64,000 bases of DNA, from contig DATNEW010000033.1 in NCBI GenBank assembly GCA_035606695.1, forward strand, positions 62,001 through 126,000, read 5' to 3'. Below are positions 26,387-54,229 of the stretch, piece by piece (within the stretch, counting starts at the first letter, position 1; the number at the start of each line of letters is the position of its first letter). The notes beneath the pieces were generated by a model, which saw only the letters and a list, made by a program, of their open reading frames with translations, was not told the DNA's origin and did no database searches. A program made the translations under genes and the position numbers. The DNA comes from Gemmatimonadaceae bacterium. GTDB taxonomy: Bacteria; Gemmatimonadota; Gemmatimonadetes; Gemmatimonadales; Gemmatimonadaceae.

Positions 26387-27360
26387 GCGACACCGTTCGT
26401 CGTGTTCCATTTCCATTGAGAGGCAGCTGACTCCATTGCGGCTGCCGCGGCATCGAGTGTGTGCAAGCGGAGCTCGACCCGGCGCAGCTTCTCCGGATTC
26501 GCGACGATGCTGATGCCGCGAATGCGTCCGTCGCTCACGACGATCGTCAACACCTGTTGCGGCGAGTTGCCGACCGCGGTCACCAGCGCCGGTTCCCCGT
26601 TGACGTCCAGGACCATCGTCCGCAGGTCCGCCGGACCGACCTTGCGTGTTACACCGGAGAGGAACTTCGCGATCGCCAACGCGCCGCGCAGCGGGCGCCG
26701 CGCCGCGGCGCGAATGACGCCGCCGCTGTCCACGTACAGCATCGCGTCCTCGGCCAGCAGGTTCACGACACTGTCGATGTCTCCGAGACGCACCGCGTGC
26801 GCGAATTCCGCGAGCAGTCGAGCGTGGAGTGCTCGGTCCGGCCGATAGCGGCGCACGTTCTGGCCCAATCGCACCTTGGCACGGTGAAACAATTGCCGGC
26901 AATTCGTTGCCGTGAGCCGCAGTACCTGCCCGATCTCGTCGTATTCGTAGTCGAAGACGTCGCGCAGGACGAAGACGGCACGCTCGCGCGGATTCAACCG
27001 CTCCATCACCGTGAGAAACGCGAGAGAGAGCGAGTCGGCAAGCTCCAGGCGTTCGTCCGCCCCGACGTGATCCGTCGGAAGCGGTTCGGGTAGCCATGGA
27101 CCCACATACTGCTCTCGTCGCGTTCGGCTGGACTGAAGCTGATTCAACGCCAGCCGAGTCACGACGGTCGATAGCCATGCGGCCGGAGTGCGGATCTCGT
27201 CGCGCGTGGCGGTCTGCCACCGCAGAAACGTCTCCTGAACCATGTCTTCCGCGTCTTCGACGCTGCCCAGCATGCGGTAGGCAATCGCGAACAGCCGCGC
27301 GCGGTGTTCCTCGAAGACCGAGAGCGGTGCAGGCGGTAATTCAGAAATCGAATCGGCCAT
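26383..27360 (-). CDS. ECF41-type sigma factor with C-terminal SnoaL-like domain
   Basis: This 325-residue sigma factor is long for an ECF. It has region 2 (about 13-80, with VEDAEDMVQETFLRW), the ECF41 linker motif GPWLPEPL (87-94), region 4 (about 118-170), and a fused SnoaL-like regulatory domain (about 175-300). The domain carries the group signatures in variant form: DSGGV (211-215, family DGGGR-like) and NPEKL (288-292, family NPDKL). ECF41 sigmas have no separate anti-sigma; the fused tail tunes activity. It lies 6 nt after the TonB-dependent receptor and overlaps the SDR start. TGTCACA-N16-GGTCAT sites in this window are its likely targets. Confidence 0.94.
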   Translation of the reverse strand: MADSISELPPAPLSVFEEHRARLFAIAYRMLGSVEDAEDMVQETFLRWQTATRDEIRTPAAWLSTVVTRLALNQLQSSRTRREQYVGPWLPEPLPTDHVGADERLELADSLSLAFLTVMERLNPRERAVFVLRDVFDYEYDEIGQVLRLTATNCRQLFHRAKVRLGQNVRRYRPDRALHARLLAEFAHAVRLGDIDSVVNLLAEDAMLYVDSGGVIRAAARRPLRGALAIAKFLSGVTRKVGPADLRTMVLDVNGEPALVTAVGNSPQQVLTIVVSDGRIRGISIVANPEKLRRVELRLHTLDAAAAAMESAASQWKWNTTNGVA

Positions 27361-49555: not shown

Positions 49556-50269
49556 GTGTCGTATCTGAGAAGTATGATCGTCGCCGCTGTCGCGTTCGCC
49601 GCCATGGCGTGCGCCGGCGATTTGTTCAACCCCTCAGGGCCTGATTCAAAGCCGGCAACTATCGCATCCGCCGTCGGCGATACGCTTCGCGCGGACGTCG
49701 CCACATCCGTTGCCATTGCGGCCACCGTACTGGACGCCGGCGGCAATCCCGTTCAGGGAAGTTCCGTCATGTTTGCGATTACCAGCGGAGGCGGATCGCT
49801 CGCGACGACGACCGCACAGACGGATAACCTGGGACAGGCAAGCATCATGTGGACGCTCGGAACGAGGGCCGGCCCGCAAACAGCGACGGCAACCGCCGAC
49901 GGGCTCTCACCGGTCGTGTTCACCGCGATCGCCGAGCCCGGCGCCGCGCTGACTCTCGACATCGCCGGCGGCGGCAACCAGTCAGCGATCGCTGGAACGG
50001 CGGTGCCGACCGATCCCTCGGTGCGGGCGCTTGATACGTACGGCAACCCGGTACCGAACGCCATGGTGCTCTTCCAGGCGCGCAATGGCGGATCGGCGAA
50101 TGGGCGCACGGATGGCAACGCGGCGTCCGCCTTCACGAACGCGGATGGTATCGCGACGGTCCATTGGATTCTGGGGCCGAGCGTCGGCGCCGATACGCTG
50201 CTTGCGCGGCTCAACGGGACGGTAGCCCCGATCGCGTTGTTCGCGAACGGGATCGCGCCGGCGCCGTAG
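49556..50269 (+). CDS. lipoprotein with bacterial Ig-like (Big_1-type) domains
   Basis: This 237-residue protein starts at GTG with GGGAG 7 nt upstream. It has a lipoprotein signal (VAAVAFAAMAC) and two Ig-like repeats of about 95 residues. Each has the Big_1 motif set: TVLDAGGNPVQGSSVMFAIT with DNLGQASIMWTLG, then ALDTYGNPVPNAMVLFQARN with NADGIATVHWILG. Such domains are structural in adhesins and surface proteins. No partner or binding specificity can be read. It is convergent with the thioredoxin-like gene at 50318. Confidence 0.85.
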   Translation: MSYLRSMIVAAVAFAAMACAGDLFNPSGPDSKPATIASAVGDTLRADVATSVAIAATVLDAGGNPVQGSSVMFAITSGGGSLATTTAQTDNLGQASIMWTLGTRAGPQTATATADGLSPVVFTAIAEPGAALTLDIAGGGNQSAIAGTAVPTDPSVRALDTYGNPVPNAMVLFQARNGGSANGRTDGNAASAFTNADGIATVHWILGPSVGADTLLARLNGTVAPIALFANGIAPAP

Positions 50270-50317: not shown

Positions 50318-52297
50318 TCACTTTTTTCTCGACTGTTGAACGGCGGCGACCATGCCTGCCAAATCAACGGCGCGGTTCGTCACGAAGCGAACCTTGCCGT
50401 CGTCGACCACGAAATACTGCGGCGTGACGCTCTGCCTGATGGCCCTCGCGACTTCCGCGCGGTCGTCGAACATCACAGCTCCATGGAATCCCCATCTCGC
50501 GAACGTCGTGGAAATCGCCGAGTCACGTCCCTCCTCGACCGCCATGAGGGTCGGCACGTCCGCGTCGCGCAACAGACGGGAGACGGAATCCACCGATGCG
50601 AGATCGCCAAGCGAGGGCGCGCAGTAGCGCGAGGCGAACGCGATGACGGCCACTCCATCACCGACGATGTCCTTGACGCGGTAGCGGCGTCCGCTGGAAT
50701 CAATCAGCGAAGCGTTCGCGTCGAACGGGCGGTGAATCGCGGTCACAAGCAGCTTCGCCAAAAGGTCGGCACGTCGGTGCTGGACGAGATCCGTCCACGA
50801 CGAGTCATGCAACGCGCCGACGCGCAGACGCAAACTGTCGCCGAGCGCGCTCGGCAGCCGCCAGTCGGCCGCGGCCCACGCGTACTCGCGGGCAGCGCCG
50901 ATCGTATCGCCCAACGCCAAGGTGGCGTCACCCAGCAAACGCGCCGCCGATGAACTTCGGCCGAATGCGACGGCTTCGCGCAGCGTGTCGCGCGCCGCGA
51001 CCAAATGGCCGTCACGCAGCAGCGCTTTTCCAAGGTTGAGAAGAAGCGGCGCCTGTTGCGCACGTGGTGTCGAGCCCAGCATGTCGCGCAGAATCCGCTC
51101 GCCCTTGTCGCGAAGATTCGGAATTTCGATGTACCGCGCCGCCACCATCGATTGATAGCCGCCGCCGAAATCGGCGAGCCGGTCGCCCCAGCGGATGACC
51201 GCGGCCGAGTCGGACAGCGACGTCGCCAGGTTGAACGCGTCGGCGAGCAGTTGAATGGCCTGGCCTCCACTTTCGCGCCAGACCAGTTCGAGCGCGGCAA
51301 GTCGTGCGCGCGGGTCGGGAACGGAATCGAAAACCGCGAACACGCGCTGCTGGATGGTGCCGGGCGCGCGCGGGTATTCACGAATCATCCGCTGGCGCCA
51401 GTGCCGAAGGAGCGCCGTGTCACGCGCGACGCCGGCGAGAAAAGCCATCTCGCTCATTGTCGATGCGTCGACGCGCGCGTCGGCGAGCTTCGCGGCCACT
51501 GCGTGCACACGCGGCCGAAACGCCGCGATCACGGCGTCGGCGTTCGCGGCACCGCCAAGTCGCAATGAGTCGCCCAGGAAGAATCGCAGCCCGGTGGGAT
51601 TGTCGGGATAGTCGCTCGCCATGGTTCGCGCGGCGACGAACGACCGCTCCCAGTCATCGCGGCCATGCAGGGCGAATTGCACCCAAAGACCGTCGAACGA
51701 CGGCTTGCCGCCGTCGCGAACAATCTGCTCCCATCCGCGTGAATCGTTGTCGTCGACGCGTTGGCCGTCCGTCGACGCGACCGTGAACTGCATGAGTGTC
51801 GTACCGGGCGGCAACGGTGCTGTCGCCTCGAAGAGGCCGTCGTCGCGCCGTTGAAGGCCGACGGTTGCGACAGGGTGGGGAACGAGCTGGCTGTTCTGAT
51901 AGGACACAATACGCAACTCGAGTTGCCGATCGCCGGCGAGCGTCGCCGGCGCCGCATATCGTACGGTCACGACAGGCTCATTCGCCGTTCCGCCCTGCCG
52001 CACGTCGAGCGTGCCGGCGGTCGGACTCGCGTCCACCGCCCGGCGCGGCAGAATCACCAGCGACAGTCCGGCCAGCGCCAATGCGGCCCACACACCAATG
52101 CGGCCGAAGACCGGTCGGGCGTGCGCCGGCGAATCGTTCACCGGAAGCAATACCTGCTCGCGTGCCGCCACGCGTTCGAACACGCGATCGCGTACCTGCG
52201 GGCGCATTCGCGAAGCGAGCGGCCGGCGCAGCGCGGACTCGATCGAACGTACGTCCTCGACCGAGAGGCGACGAAATCCATCTATCGAGAATCTCAT
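50318..52297 (-). CDS. membrane-anchored repeat / thioredoxin-like protein, possible anti-sigma factor
   Basis: This 659-residue protein has a cytoplasmic N-terminus of about 65 residues and one membrane helix (66-84, GRIGVWAALALAGLSLVILP). The periplasmic part has a beta-rich segment (about 95-190), a helical TPR-like region (about 200-500: DRLADFGGGYQSMV, APLLLNLGKALLRDGHLVAARDTLREAV), and a C-terminal thioredoxin-like fold (about 545-655). There the motif is RYCAPSLGD with only the first Cys of the usual CxxC. It overlaps the ECF sigma stop by ATGA. Position and topology suggest a transmembrane anti-sigma factor, although the N-terminus lacks a recognisable zinc-binding HxxxCxxC motif. Confidence 0.78.
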   Translation of the reverse strand: MRFSIDGFRRLSVEDVRSIESALRRPLASRMRPQVRDRVFERVAAREQVLLPVNDSPAHARPVFGRIGVWAALALAGLSLVILPRRAVDASPTAGTLDVRQGGTANEPVVTVRYAAPATLAGDRQLELRIVSYQNSQLVPHPVATVGLQRRDDGLFEATAPLPPGTTLMQFTVASTDGQRVDDNDSRGWEQIVRDGGKPSFDGLWVQFALHGRDDWERSFVAARTMASDYPDNPTGLRFFLGDSLRLGGAANADAVIAAFRPRVHAVAAKLADARVDASTMSEMAFLAGVARDTALLRHWRQRMIREYPRAPGTIQQRVFAVFDSVPDPRARLAALELVWRESGGQAIQLLADAFNLATSLSDSAAVIRWGDRLADFGGGYQSMVAARYIEIPNLRDKGERILRDMLGSTPRAQQAPLLLNLGKALLRDGHLVAARDTLREAVAFGRSSSAARLLGDATLALGDTIGAAREYAWAAADWRLPSALGDSLRLRVGALHDSSWTDLVQHRRADLLAKLLVTAIHRPFDANASLIDSSGRRYRVKDIVGDGVAVIAFASRYCAPSLGDLASVDSVSRLLRDADVPTLMAVEEGRDSAISTTFARWGFHGAVMFDDRAEVARAIRQSVTPQYFVVDDGKVRFVTNRAVDLAGMVAAVQQSRKK

Positions 52298-52848
52298 TGT
52301 GAATCCTCTAACAATCGTTTGAGCTTGAGAATGGCGCGGTGAAAGCGAACTTTGGAGGCGCTGACGCTGATACCGAGCAATCGTGCGACCTCCTCGTGCC
52401 CATGACCCTCGAGCGCCTTGAGCACGACCACCGCGCGCATCCCCGCCGGCAATGCCGCCAGTGCGCGCTCGACGTGGTCGTCCTGCGGCGGCGCGCTCTC
52501 CACCGTGACTTCGGCCGCGGCCTCACGCATGGCGCGTGTTCGCGCGCTGCGGAGCCGCATCAACGCGGTGCGTGCGGCGAGCCGCCGAAGCCACGCGCCG
52601 AATGTGCCGCGCTCCTCATACTTGCCCAGCGCCAACCGCAATCCGACGAACACGTCCTGCACCGCATCCTCGGCGTCGTCTCGTGATCCGAGGAGGCGAA
52701 ACGTGAGGTGATAGATCGCCTCGGCATGACGCTCAAAGAGCGCGGCAAGCGCTTCGTCGTCGCCGAGCCGCACGCGCTCGGCAAGTTCAGCGTCGTTCGC
52801 CGTGACGATGCGGGGCGTTTCTATTCGAGGGGAGTGGAGGCTCGCCAT
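52294..52848 (-). CDS. ECF-family RNA polymerase sigma factor
   Basis: This 184-residue sigma factor has region 2 (about 22-90, FERHAEAIYHLTFRLLGSRDDAEDAVQDVFVGLRL) and region 4 (about 125-178, LAALPAGMRAVVVLKALEGHGHEEVARLLGISVSASKVRFHRA). It has no C-terminal extension and so differs from the ECF41 protein at 26383. It heads an operon with the membrane-anchored thioredoxin-like protein, whose start overlaps this stop. A GGTAACC-N12-14-TGCATT-like sequence on the minus strand just upstream (52858-52885) may be its own promoter. Confidence 0.93.
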   Translation of the reverse strand: MASLHSPRIETPRIVTANDAELAERVRLGDDEALAALFERHAEAIYHLTFRLLGSRDDAEDAVQDVFVGLRLALGKYEERGTFGAWLRRLAARTALMRLRSARTRAMREAAAEVTVESAPPQDDHVERALAALPAGMRAVVVLKALEGHGHEEVARLLGISVSASKVRFHRAILKLKRLLEDSQ

Positions 52849-52857
52849 ACATCATGA

Positions 52858-52885
52858 GAATGCACGCCGGGTCGAAAAGGTTACC
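52858..52885 (-). promoter_or_regulatory. possible ECF autoregulated promoter
   Basis: On the minus strand GGTAACCTTTT (52885-52875), then TGCATT (52863-52858), in front of the ECF sigma gene. The -35-like box has the AAC core typical of ECF promoters. The leader would be only a few nucleotides, which weakens the call. Confidence 0.25.
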
Positions 52886-53017: not shown

Positions 53018-54229
53018 ATGACTTCCACCGCTTGTCGCATCGCCCTGCTGCTCGCGCTCGTCGCGTGCGGCACCCAGCACGAAGAGCGCTACGGCTTCGT
53101 CGCGACGCTTGGCAGCGACACCACCTCCGTCGAACAGGTGACTCGAACGCCGAGCCGCATCGTCGTCGACGCCGTCGGCCGATCGCCGCGCGTCACGCGC
53201 CGCCACTGGACGGCCCAACTCGGGCCGGACGGGAGCGTGCAGAAGTGGTCGATGGACACGTACATCCCGAATGCCGAGCCAGCGAACCAGCACATCCACC
53301 ACACCGCCGACTTCAGCGGCAACACCATCTCGCTGTCGCGCGGGGTCGCGGCGGGTTCGCGCGACTTCGCATACCAGAAGCAGTATCCGGCCACCGTGCC
53401 GTGGAATGCGTTCGTGTACAGCACCTACGAGCCGCTGTTCGACGCGGCGCGCCGACAAGGTGCGGCCGCGCGCATCGGGCAATACTTCTTCGAGGGATGG
53501 GACGAATCGCACATCGGATACGCCGACATCAGGCGGCAGTCCGACGGCTCCTATTCGCTCGCCAGCACCGGGCTCGCGGGCAGCGGTGTGGCTCACTTCG
53601 ATTCGGCCGGGCGGATGGTGGCGTATTCCGGCGCGGGCACCACGTACAAGCAGGAGGTGCGCCGCGTATCAGAAGTTCCTAATATCGATTCTCTTACAAC
53701 ACGTTTGGCCGCCGCGGAGCTCGAGACCGGCGTGCCGTCGGAGCTGAGTCCGGGCGACTTCGTCCAGGACACGCTCGGCTCGGCGATACTCACGATCACG
53801 TACAGCCGGCCGGCTCGTCGCGGGCGCACGCTGGTGGGTGGGCTCATCCCGTACGATCAGGTGTGGCGCACCGGAGCGAACGCCGCCACGCAGTTCACGA
53901 CGTCCGAGCCGATCACGCTCGCCGGTATTCCGCTTCACGCCGGCAAGTACACGTTGTGGACGCTGCCCTCGAAAACCGGCGTGCAGTTGATCGTGAACGG
54001 GCAGACAGGACAGTGGGGAACGTCGTATCGATCGAGTGCCGACGTCGCGCGAAAGCCAATGCAGGTGGATTCGCTTCCCGGCAACGTGGAGCAATTCACC
54101 ATTCGCGTCGAGCCGGACGCCGCGGCCAAAGCCGGTGCTGGACGTGGCCGGCTCGTCATGGAGTGGGGTCAGTTTCGATGGTCGGCGGCGATACAGGCTC
54201 CTGTTCCCGCGCCGGCGAAGACCCGGTAA
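53018..54229 (+). CDS. lipoprotein with DUF2911 domain
   Basis: This 403-residue protein has a lipoprotein signal (ALLLALVAC, Cys17). The N-terminal domain (about 25-240) starts FVATLGSDTTSVEQVTRTPSRI and resembles the exported protein at 2198-2935. A C-terminal DUF2911 domain follows (about 250-390: ITYSRPARRGR, VWRTGANAATQFTTSEPI, LHAGKYTLWTLPSK). DUF2911 has no known activity. It is followed 10 nt after the stop by the HEAT-cyclophilin gene, so the two are probably co-transcribed. It is divergent from the ECF sigma operon. Confidence 0.88.
   Translation: MTSTACRIALLLALVACGTQHEERYGFVATLGSDTTSVEQVTRTPSRIVVDAVGRSPRVTRRHWTAQLGPDGSVQKWSMDTYIPNAEPANQHIHHTADFSGNTISLSRGVAAGSRDFAYQKQYPATVPWNAFVYSTYEPLFDAARRQGAAARIGQYFFEGWDESHIGYADIRRQSDGSYSLASTGLAGSGVAHFDSAGRMVAYSGAGTTYKQEVRRVSEVPNIDSLTTRLAAAELETGVPSELSPGDFVQDTLGSAILTITYSRPARRGRTLVGGLIPYDQVWRTGANAATQFTTSEPITLAGIPLHAGKYTLWTLPSKTGVQLIVNGQTGQWGTSYRSSADVARKPMQVDSLPGNVEQFTIRVEPDAAAKAGAGRGRLVMEWGQFRWSAAIQAPVPAPAKTR

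Follow-up and report, generated by a model that had tools for sequence, protein, structure and literature searches.

The gene pair and its surroundings

In the window, that is, the whole 64-kb stretch of DNA analysed here, two genes on the minus strand overlap each other. The upstream gene (52294..52848, minus strand, stop codon included) encodes a 184-residue ECF sigma factor. Its product matched Sigma70_r2 (E 1.2e-15) and Sigma70_r4_2 (E 1.4e-13) in Pfam, both above the cut-off, and TIGR02937 in NCBIfam (E 3.1e-22). By Pfam it contains regions 2 and 4 and little else, the composition that marks an ECF sigma factor. The second gene (50318..52297, minus strand, stop codon included) encodes a 659-residue protein, predicted from its open reading frame, family and gene order to be a membrane anti-sigma factor. 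The stop and start codons share an ATGA (52294..52297, minus strand), and the same spacing of -3 was seen in many relatives, which suggests that translation of the two genes may be coupled. Both reading frames and their overlap had been described in the original prediction for this DNA, and the sequence bore them out.

Genome-wide, 38 Sigma70_r2 matches were found, including that of the sigma gene at 52294-52848. A further match lies in the window at 27124-27315 on the minus strand. The convergent neighbour of the pair (49556-50269) encodes Big_1-type Ig-like repeats (Pfam Big_1, E 1.1e-16), and the divergent neighbour (53018-54229) encodes a DUF2911 domain (Pfam, E 1.3e-39). Across seven wide loci, judged by eye after gene calling, no genes common beside the pair were found.

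Architecture of the 659-residue protein

The protein comprises a cytoplasmic tail, one membrane helix and three outer domains (all coordinates on the minus strand). Alignment with zinc-type relatives indicated that the tail, residues 1-64 (52106..52297), is a degenerate class I anti-sigma domain, in which a helix-4-like segment is kept (residues 30-52, 52142..52210). A hydropathy scan placed the single membrane helix at residues 65-83 (52049..52105). A tail of about 65 residues and one membrane helix had been proposed before, in agreement with the tail of about 64 residues found here. Outside the membrane, AlphaFold models revealed an Ig-like or FN3-like β-sandwich (residues 94-195, 51713..52018), a TPR-like helical solenoid (residues ~200-520, 50738..51700) and a thioredoxin-like domain of the TlpA/ResA type (residues 521-659, 50321..50737). 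The Ig-like domain, like the promoter motif described below, was absent from the original prediction and emerged in the follow-up. Cys559 (50621..50623), the only cysteine of the protein, lies within SRYCAPS and aligns with the thioredoxin nucleophile, and Pro626 (50420..50422, in VTPQYF) aligns with the thioredoxin cis-proline. Compared with the TlpA/ResA type, the thioredoxin fold with its cis-Pro is thus present, but the CxxC redox pair is replaced by CAPS.

On its own, the protein had almost no Pfam matches (TPR_14, E 0.16) and only a weak NCBIfam match to ResA (E 6.5e-4, below the cut-off). A profile built from 12 relatives matched ResA/TlpA-type structures over the C-terminus, and these relatives contained Pfam AhpC-TSA (10/12), Redoxin (9/12) and TPR_14 (3/12). 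The AlphaFold model had a mean pLDDT of 78.5, with values below 50 at residues 1-32 and 46-93, so that the tail was poorly modelled. The thioredoxin fold spanned residues ~521-656 of the model, and a second-look structural alignment gave its best Z of 16.4 with ResA (1st9; rmsd 2.3 over 132 residues). The top Foldseek matches of the solenoid were TPR proteins for the most part. The Ig-like domain matched many unrelated β-sandwiches with Z of 9.5 and below, and these structural matches provided no functional lead. The TPR-like repeats and the thioredoxin fold with a single Cys, both anticipated earlier, were recovered in the AlphaFold model, the family profile and the sequence.

Recurrence of the pair in relatives

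The window protein was a poor query by itself. It matched in 3 of 59 genomes, its own included, and a first contig scan with this single sequence found nothing. Profiles reached further: of 395 genomes sampled from the phylum, 58 matched at 1e-25 or better, a count that includes relatives lacking a sigma gene. A scan of named genomes yielded nine loci, all in Gemmatimonadetes or Gemmatimonadaceae metagenome assemblies. Judged from these relatives, a Gemmatimonadota origin of the window is very likely. The original prediction had suggested seeking the pair in other genomes and would have counted a lack of conservation against itself. That outcome did not occur: the sigma gene lay upstream at 9/9 of the named loci, and the gene order recurred in relatives, often with the identical ATGA overlap. 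Because of this recurrence, we regard the pairing as more than chance.

Several relatives departed from this arrangement. In genome G014 (L048), a full-length homologue lacks both the cytoplasmic tail and the sigma gene. In G124 (L051/L105), the homologue has a broken-looking N-terminus, the upstream frame resembles an aminotransferase by eye, and tblastn found no sigma gene within the stretch examined. Another set (L018-L021, also L059-L062) combines a zinc tail, a membrane helix and a similar outer part with no recognised C-terminal thioredoxin domain, so the sensor end appears to have been exchanged; several of these proteins have cysteines at matching places. Finally, L066-L073, L075-L077, L081, L084 and L085, which have no sigma gene, are related to the outer part and are secreted or lipoprotein-like, some of them with a full CGPC. 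These are possibly enzyme forms of the sensor.

The cytoplasmic tail and the class I anti-sigma domain

The presence of a cytoplasmic tail followed that of the sigma gene. Among 63 relatives with a readable N-terminus, the window protein included, at least 40 residues preceded the first hydrophobic segment in 47/47 sigma-linked proteins and in 2/16 sigma-less ones (Fisher p 3e-12, a value that overstates independence because near-copies were counted). In 14 of the 16 sigma-less relatives, a hydrophobic segment starts within the first 31 residues, and the two exceptions (L076 and L077) also begin in a signal-like manner, below the cut used. Start codons were taken near the sigma stop for the sigma-linked proteins and from the longest frame for the others, a bias that runs against the difference. 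The comparison was made with L051, L054, L058, L078, L079, L088 and L105 set aside.

Most of these tails are recognisable zinc-binding domains. The HxxxCxxC motif occurs in 38 of the 47 sigma-linked tails, and one His and two Cys are invariant in 30/30 zinc-type tails (30 of 37 available, taken without near-copies), 23 of which match zf-HC2 in Pfam. The profile of these 30 tails matched six distinct sequences in total. These were ChrR (E 8e-8, two entries), DdvA (1.2e-6), RsiW (4.5e-6), 3hug (1.5e-5), which we take to be RslA, and also the CHAT-domain protein 8rot (1.5e-5). The matches place the tails of the relatives within class I by ancestry.

The window tail contains no Cys and so lacks the Hx3Cx2C motif. 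Helices 1-3, present in the zinc-type relatives, could not be recognised in it. The helix-4-like segment, however, aligned: eight non-zinc tails fit the C-terminal end of six zinc-type tails, with the pattern LLxRIxxRRAAGxRVILP. The tree also contained a starred group in which L045/L046, without the zinc motif, joined their close kin L044/L047, which have it. This grouping points to loss of the zinc helices. PMC7406223 describes helix 1 of class I anti-sigmas as contacting sigma4 and helix 4 as contacting sigma2. It also describes zinc and non-zinc forms as mixed across the class, with non-zinc domains common and the Hx3Cx2C motif found in about 56% of members, so that the motif is not obligatory (PMC7406223). 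The window tail may therefore grip its sigma factor mainly through sigma2, which the helix-4-like segment would contact.

Since most relatives carry the standard zinc motif, the window tail is best seen as a derived class I domain. By its alignment with these relatives, we classify the window protein as a predicted class I-derived anti-sigma factor that lost its zinc helices, and its gene lies directly beside an ECF sigma gene in the conserved ATGA arrangement, as in class I. The assignment of the 659-residue protein as an anti-sigma factor, as originally proposed, is well supported at the sequence level by gene order, by the association of tail and sigma gene (47/47 against 2/16) and by the zinc domains of its relatives. 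The accompanying description of it as unlike the standard zinc anti-sigmas holds for the window copy but not for most of its family.

The active-site cysteine across the family

The active site was compared in 62 aligned relatives, comprising 45 sigma-linked proteins (among them L088, at a contig end) and 17 sigma-less ones, with L051, L054, L057, L058, L062, L064, L078 and L105 set aside. A nucleophile Cys without CxxC was found in 24 of the 45 sigma-linked proteins. In 23 of these 24 it is the only ectodomain Cys; L086 has CxxF plus a second Cys. The +3 position is Ser in 14, Ala in 9 and Phe in 1, the -3 position is Ser in 22, and the cis-Pro is kept in 23. Three sigma-linked proteins (L052, L053 and L055) have CxxC. 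In the other 18 the site has no Cys, and the cis-Pro is mostly absent as well; a sigma gene was seen for 17 of them, L088 lying at its contig end. The 17 sigma-less relatives divide into CxxC (8), CxxS (8) and one in which the region is lacking. In the alignment of 12 proteins, the nucleophile Cys is one of 24 invariant columns among 830.

On a quick tree of 61 of these sequences (L082 also set aside), the active-site states required five changes. All proteins without the Cys fell on one side of a single branch with support 93, and on the window's side the Cys was kept among proteins only 26-39% identical to L007. The tree is unrooted and has long branches, 20 of its 57 inner branches are open, and it does not show which event came first; that an enzyme became a sensor is therefore only the simpler reading. 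On that reading, the outer part of the window protein is probably a converted thiol enzyme now serving as a sensor.

The original prediction had suggested that the protein could sense the periplasmic redox state. For the window protein this is possible, as the lone Cys is kept on its side of the tree. As a general mechanism it fails: 18 relatives without the Cys keep the architecture, 17 of them with a sigma gene, so signalling in the family needs no thiol. Judged from these comparisons, thiol sensing is plausible in the window's subgroup and cannot be the mechanism of the whole family.

Since the window protein has no other Cys, no internal disulfide is possible. Cys559 could therefore carry a thiol signal only by bonding to another molecule, by becoming oxidised or by dimer formation. 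Because only these thiol outcomes are possible, we hold with moderate confidence that thiol capture is the best reading for the window's subgroup. A serious rival, because relatives without the Cys persist beside sigma genes, is ligand binding by the surface of the solenoid or the thioredoxin domain. The protein would then be an anti-sigma factor with a non-redox binding platform outside, where a protein, peptide or glycan docks on the Ig, TPR and thioredoxin folds, and Cys559 would be a leftover of the enzyme ancestor. Ig-like and TPR domains are indeed common binding modules, and the architecture outlasts the loss of the Cys and, mostly, of the cis-Pro. However, the members without the Cys are confined to one side of a single branch. 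A leftover would also be expected to drift, whereas the Cys is kept on the window's side despite the low identities there, as the only ectodomain Cys in all but one of the one-cysteine proteins and together with its Ser and cis-Pro neighbours. We consider this explanation rather unlikely for the window protein.

Peroxide sensing through a sulfenic acid, with Cys559 as a peroxidatic residue like that of a 1-Cys peroxiredoxin, would account for the frequent AhpC-TSA and Redoxin matches among the 12 relatives, for the peroxiredoxins among the fold matches (Z about 14-15) and for the Ser at -3, where peroxiredoxins have Thr or Ser. The motif of 1-Cys peroxiredoxins is PxxxTxxC. Its Pro is missing from the window protein, which has Ile552 at -7, and we rank this reading low for that reason; moreover, the thioredoxin cis-Pro is present and ResA/TlpA types come out best in both the fold and the profile comparisons. 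Such a role seems improbable. It is more improbable still that the protein is no anti-sigma factor, but a thiol protein anchored in the membrane that only shares a transcript with the sigma gene. Secreted relatives without a sigma gene do exist, some with a full CGPC, but two things speak strongly against this: the cytoplasmic tail goes together with an upstream sigma gene, and relatives carry zinc anti-sigma domains in their tails.

A promoter-like motif upstream of the sigma genes

A promoter-like motif, GGTAACCTT-N11-GTGCAT, lies upstream of the sigma gene (52860..52885, minus strand) and scored 14.05 against the family consensus TGTAASSTT-N11-CGGCAT, which was derived from 44 regions upstream of sigma genes. 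The motif emerged first from pairs of words that up to 17 of the 44 regions had in common, compared with 4-5 in shuffles. Scores of at least 13 were reached by 27/44 family regions and by 2.5% of 2000 random windows from the same loci, and the spacer was exactly 11 in 28 of the 36 regions scoring at least 11. The motif was not seen in several relatives without the Cys (e.g., L092, L095, L098 and L100). In the window it ends 11 bases before the ATG of the sigma gene, with similarly short distances in relatives, so that the mRNA may be nearly leaderless. Its position upstream of the sigma gene implies that this gene is autoregulated from the motif.

The exact promoter pattern matched twice in the genome itself and five times with the reversed control, which is not above chance. 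No regulon beyond the sigma gene is therefore supported there. The second of the two matches lies upstream of a DsbA-like gene (L122, 730-1413; Thioredoxin_4, E 3.1e-22). At 29 other DsbA-like loci no such site was found, the best score being 12.2 (20 genomes gave many more matches, of which 30 loci were retained), and the DsbA-like gene was rejected as a conserved target. A stricter pattern gave 11 matches in 6 of 14 genomes and no control matches. Six of the 11 lie, by position, at sigma genes of the family. The other five lie at another sigma gene and, judged by eye, at genes for a bactofilin, a soluble protein, a PAS-type kinase and an ABC transporter, and no common target was found in the 14 genomes. 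In genome G096, a second ECF sigma gene (L131) has the same motif upstream, a hint of cross-regulation between sigma paralogues.

Proposed mechanism

On balance, we lean towards reading the pair as an ECF sigma factor and a membrane class I-derived anti-sigma factor whose sensor works by thiol capture with one cysteine. The tail, with its helix-4-like segment and without the zinc helices, would hold the sigma factor at the membrane. The outer part, consisting of the Ig-like domain, the TPR-like solenoid and the thioredoxin-like domain, would be the sensor; secreted TPR-thioredoxin proteins of the TlpA/ResA type are its relatives by descent. In the laboratory, thioredoxin partners are trapped with a nucleophile Cys that has no resolving Cys beside it. 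At a CxxS or CxxA site, a mixed disulfide with a partner could likewise form and could not be resolved. The likely signal in the window's subgroup would be a periplasmic thiol event, in which Cys559 captures an envelope protein or a small thiol. This capture would alter the outer part and so free the sigma factor, probably through intramembrane proteolysis, for which RseA/RseP offers an analogy (PMC8103513). The genome encodes site-2-protease-type Peptidase_M50 proteins (best E 2.5e-61); such proteases were also present in 14/14 control genomes, so their presence says little. Once free, the sigma factor would act at the TGTAASSTT-N11-CGGCAT promoter to transcribe the operon that encodes it, and possibly further targets.

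More tentatively, the proposal might be extended to a Gemmatimonadota-wide family whose anti-sigma sensor is a recruited TPR-thioredoxin enzyme, made a natural trap mutant by a change from CxxC to CxxS/A. A side branch may have lost the Cys and changed its ligand, and the zinc helices may have been lost several times in parallel. If this is true, the sensor reports the thiol status of the envelope by covalently capturing a partner that cannot be released.

Comparison with known systems

Among the papers covered, a literature search returned no account of an anti-sigma factor with a TPR and thioredoxin ectodomain, and the passages retrieved from PMC8103513 do not mention the architecture of the window anti-sigma factor. 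The sigma factor may already belong to a numbered group of the large ECF re-classification. The closest parallels are the class I ECF anti-sigmas ChrR, RsiW, RslA, RseA and RskA, with which the window protein shares a gene beside an ECF sigma gene, an N-terminal cytoplasmic domain, a single membrane helix and a sensor outside. It differs in its tail, which lacks the HxxxCxxC shared by most family relatives and keeps little more than the helix-4-like segment, and in its sensor of Ig, TPR and one-cysteine thioredoxin domains. DdvA of Myxococcus xanthus (PDB 8rlz) was one of the closest anti-sigma proteins in the search with the zinc-type tails, a comparison that covers the tails. According to PMC4374960, DdvA is the cognate anti-sigma of the ECF sigma DdvS, and its signal is unknown. 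The outer part resembles the TlpA and ResA oxidoreductases, its best structural and profile matches, in the thioredoxin fold, the nucleophile Cys and the cis-Pro. In contrast to these enzymes, the second Cys is Ser or Ala, the -3 position is Ser, and the same chain carries a solenoid and an anti-sigma tail. With a graded series from CxxC through CxxS/A to no Cys within one family, the step from enzyme to sensor can be tested directly, and the family promoter motif is now available for a group in which regulation has been little studied by experiment.

The redox zinc anti-sigmas of the RsrA type also couple thiol chemistry to release of a sigma factor. RsrA responds within the cytoplasm, using its own zinc-binding domain, whereas the only Cys of the window protein lies in a predicted periplasmic thioredoxin domain. 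To our knowledge, thiol-sensing anti-sigmas use cytoplasmic cysteines. Coupling an ECF sigma factor to a one-cysteine thioredoxin outside the membrane would be a different way to report the thiol state of the envelope.
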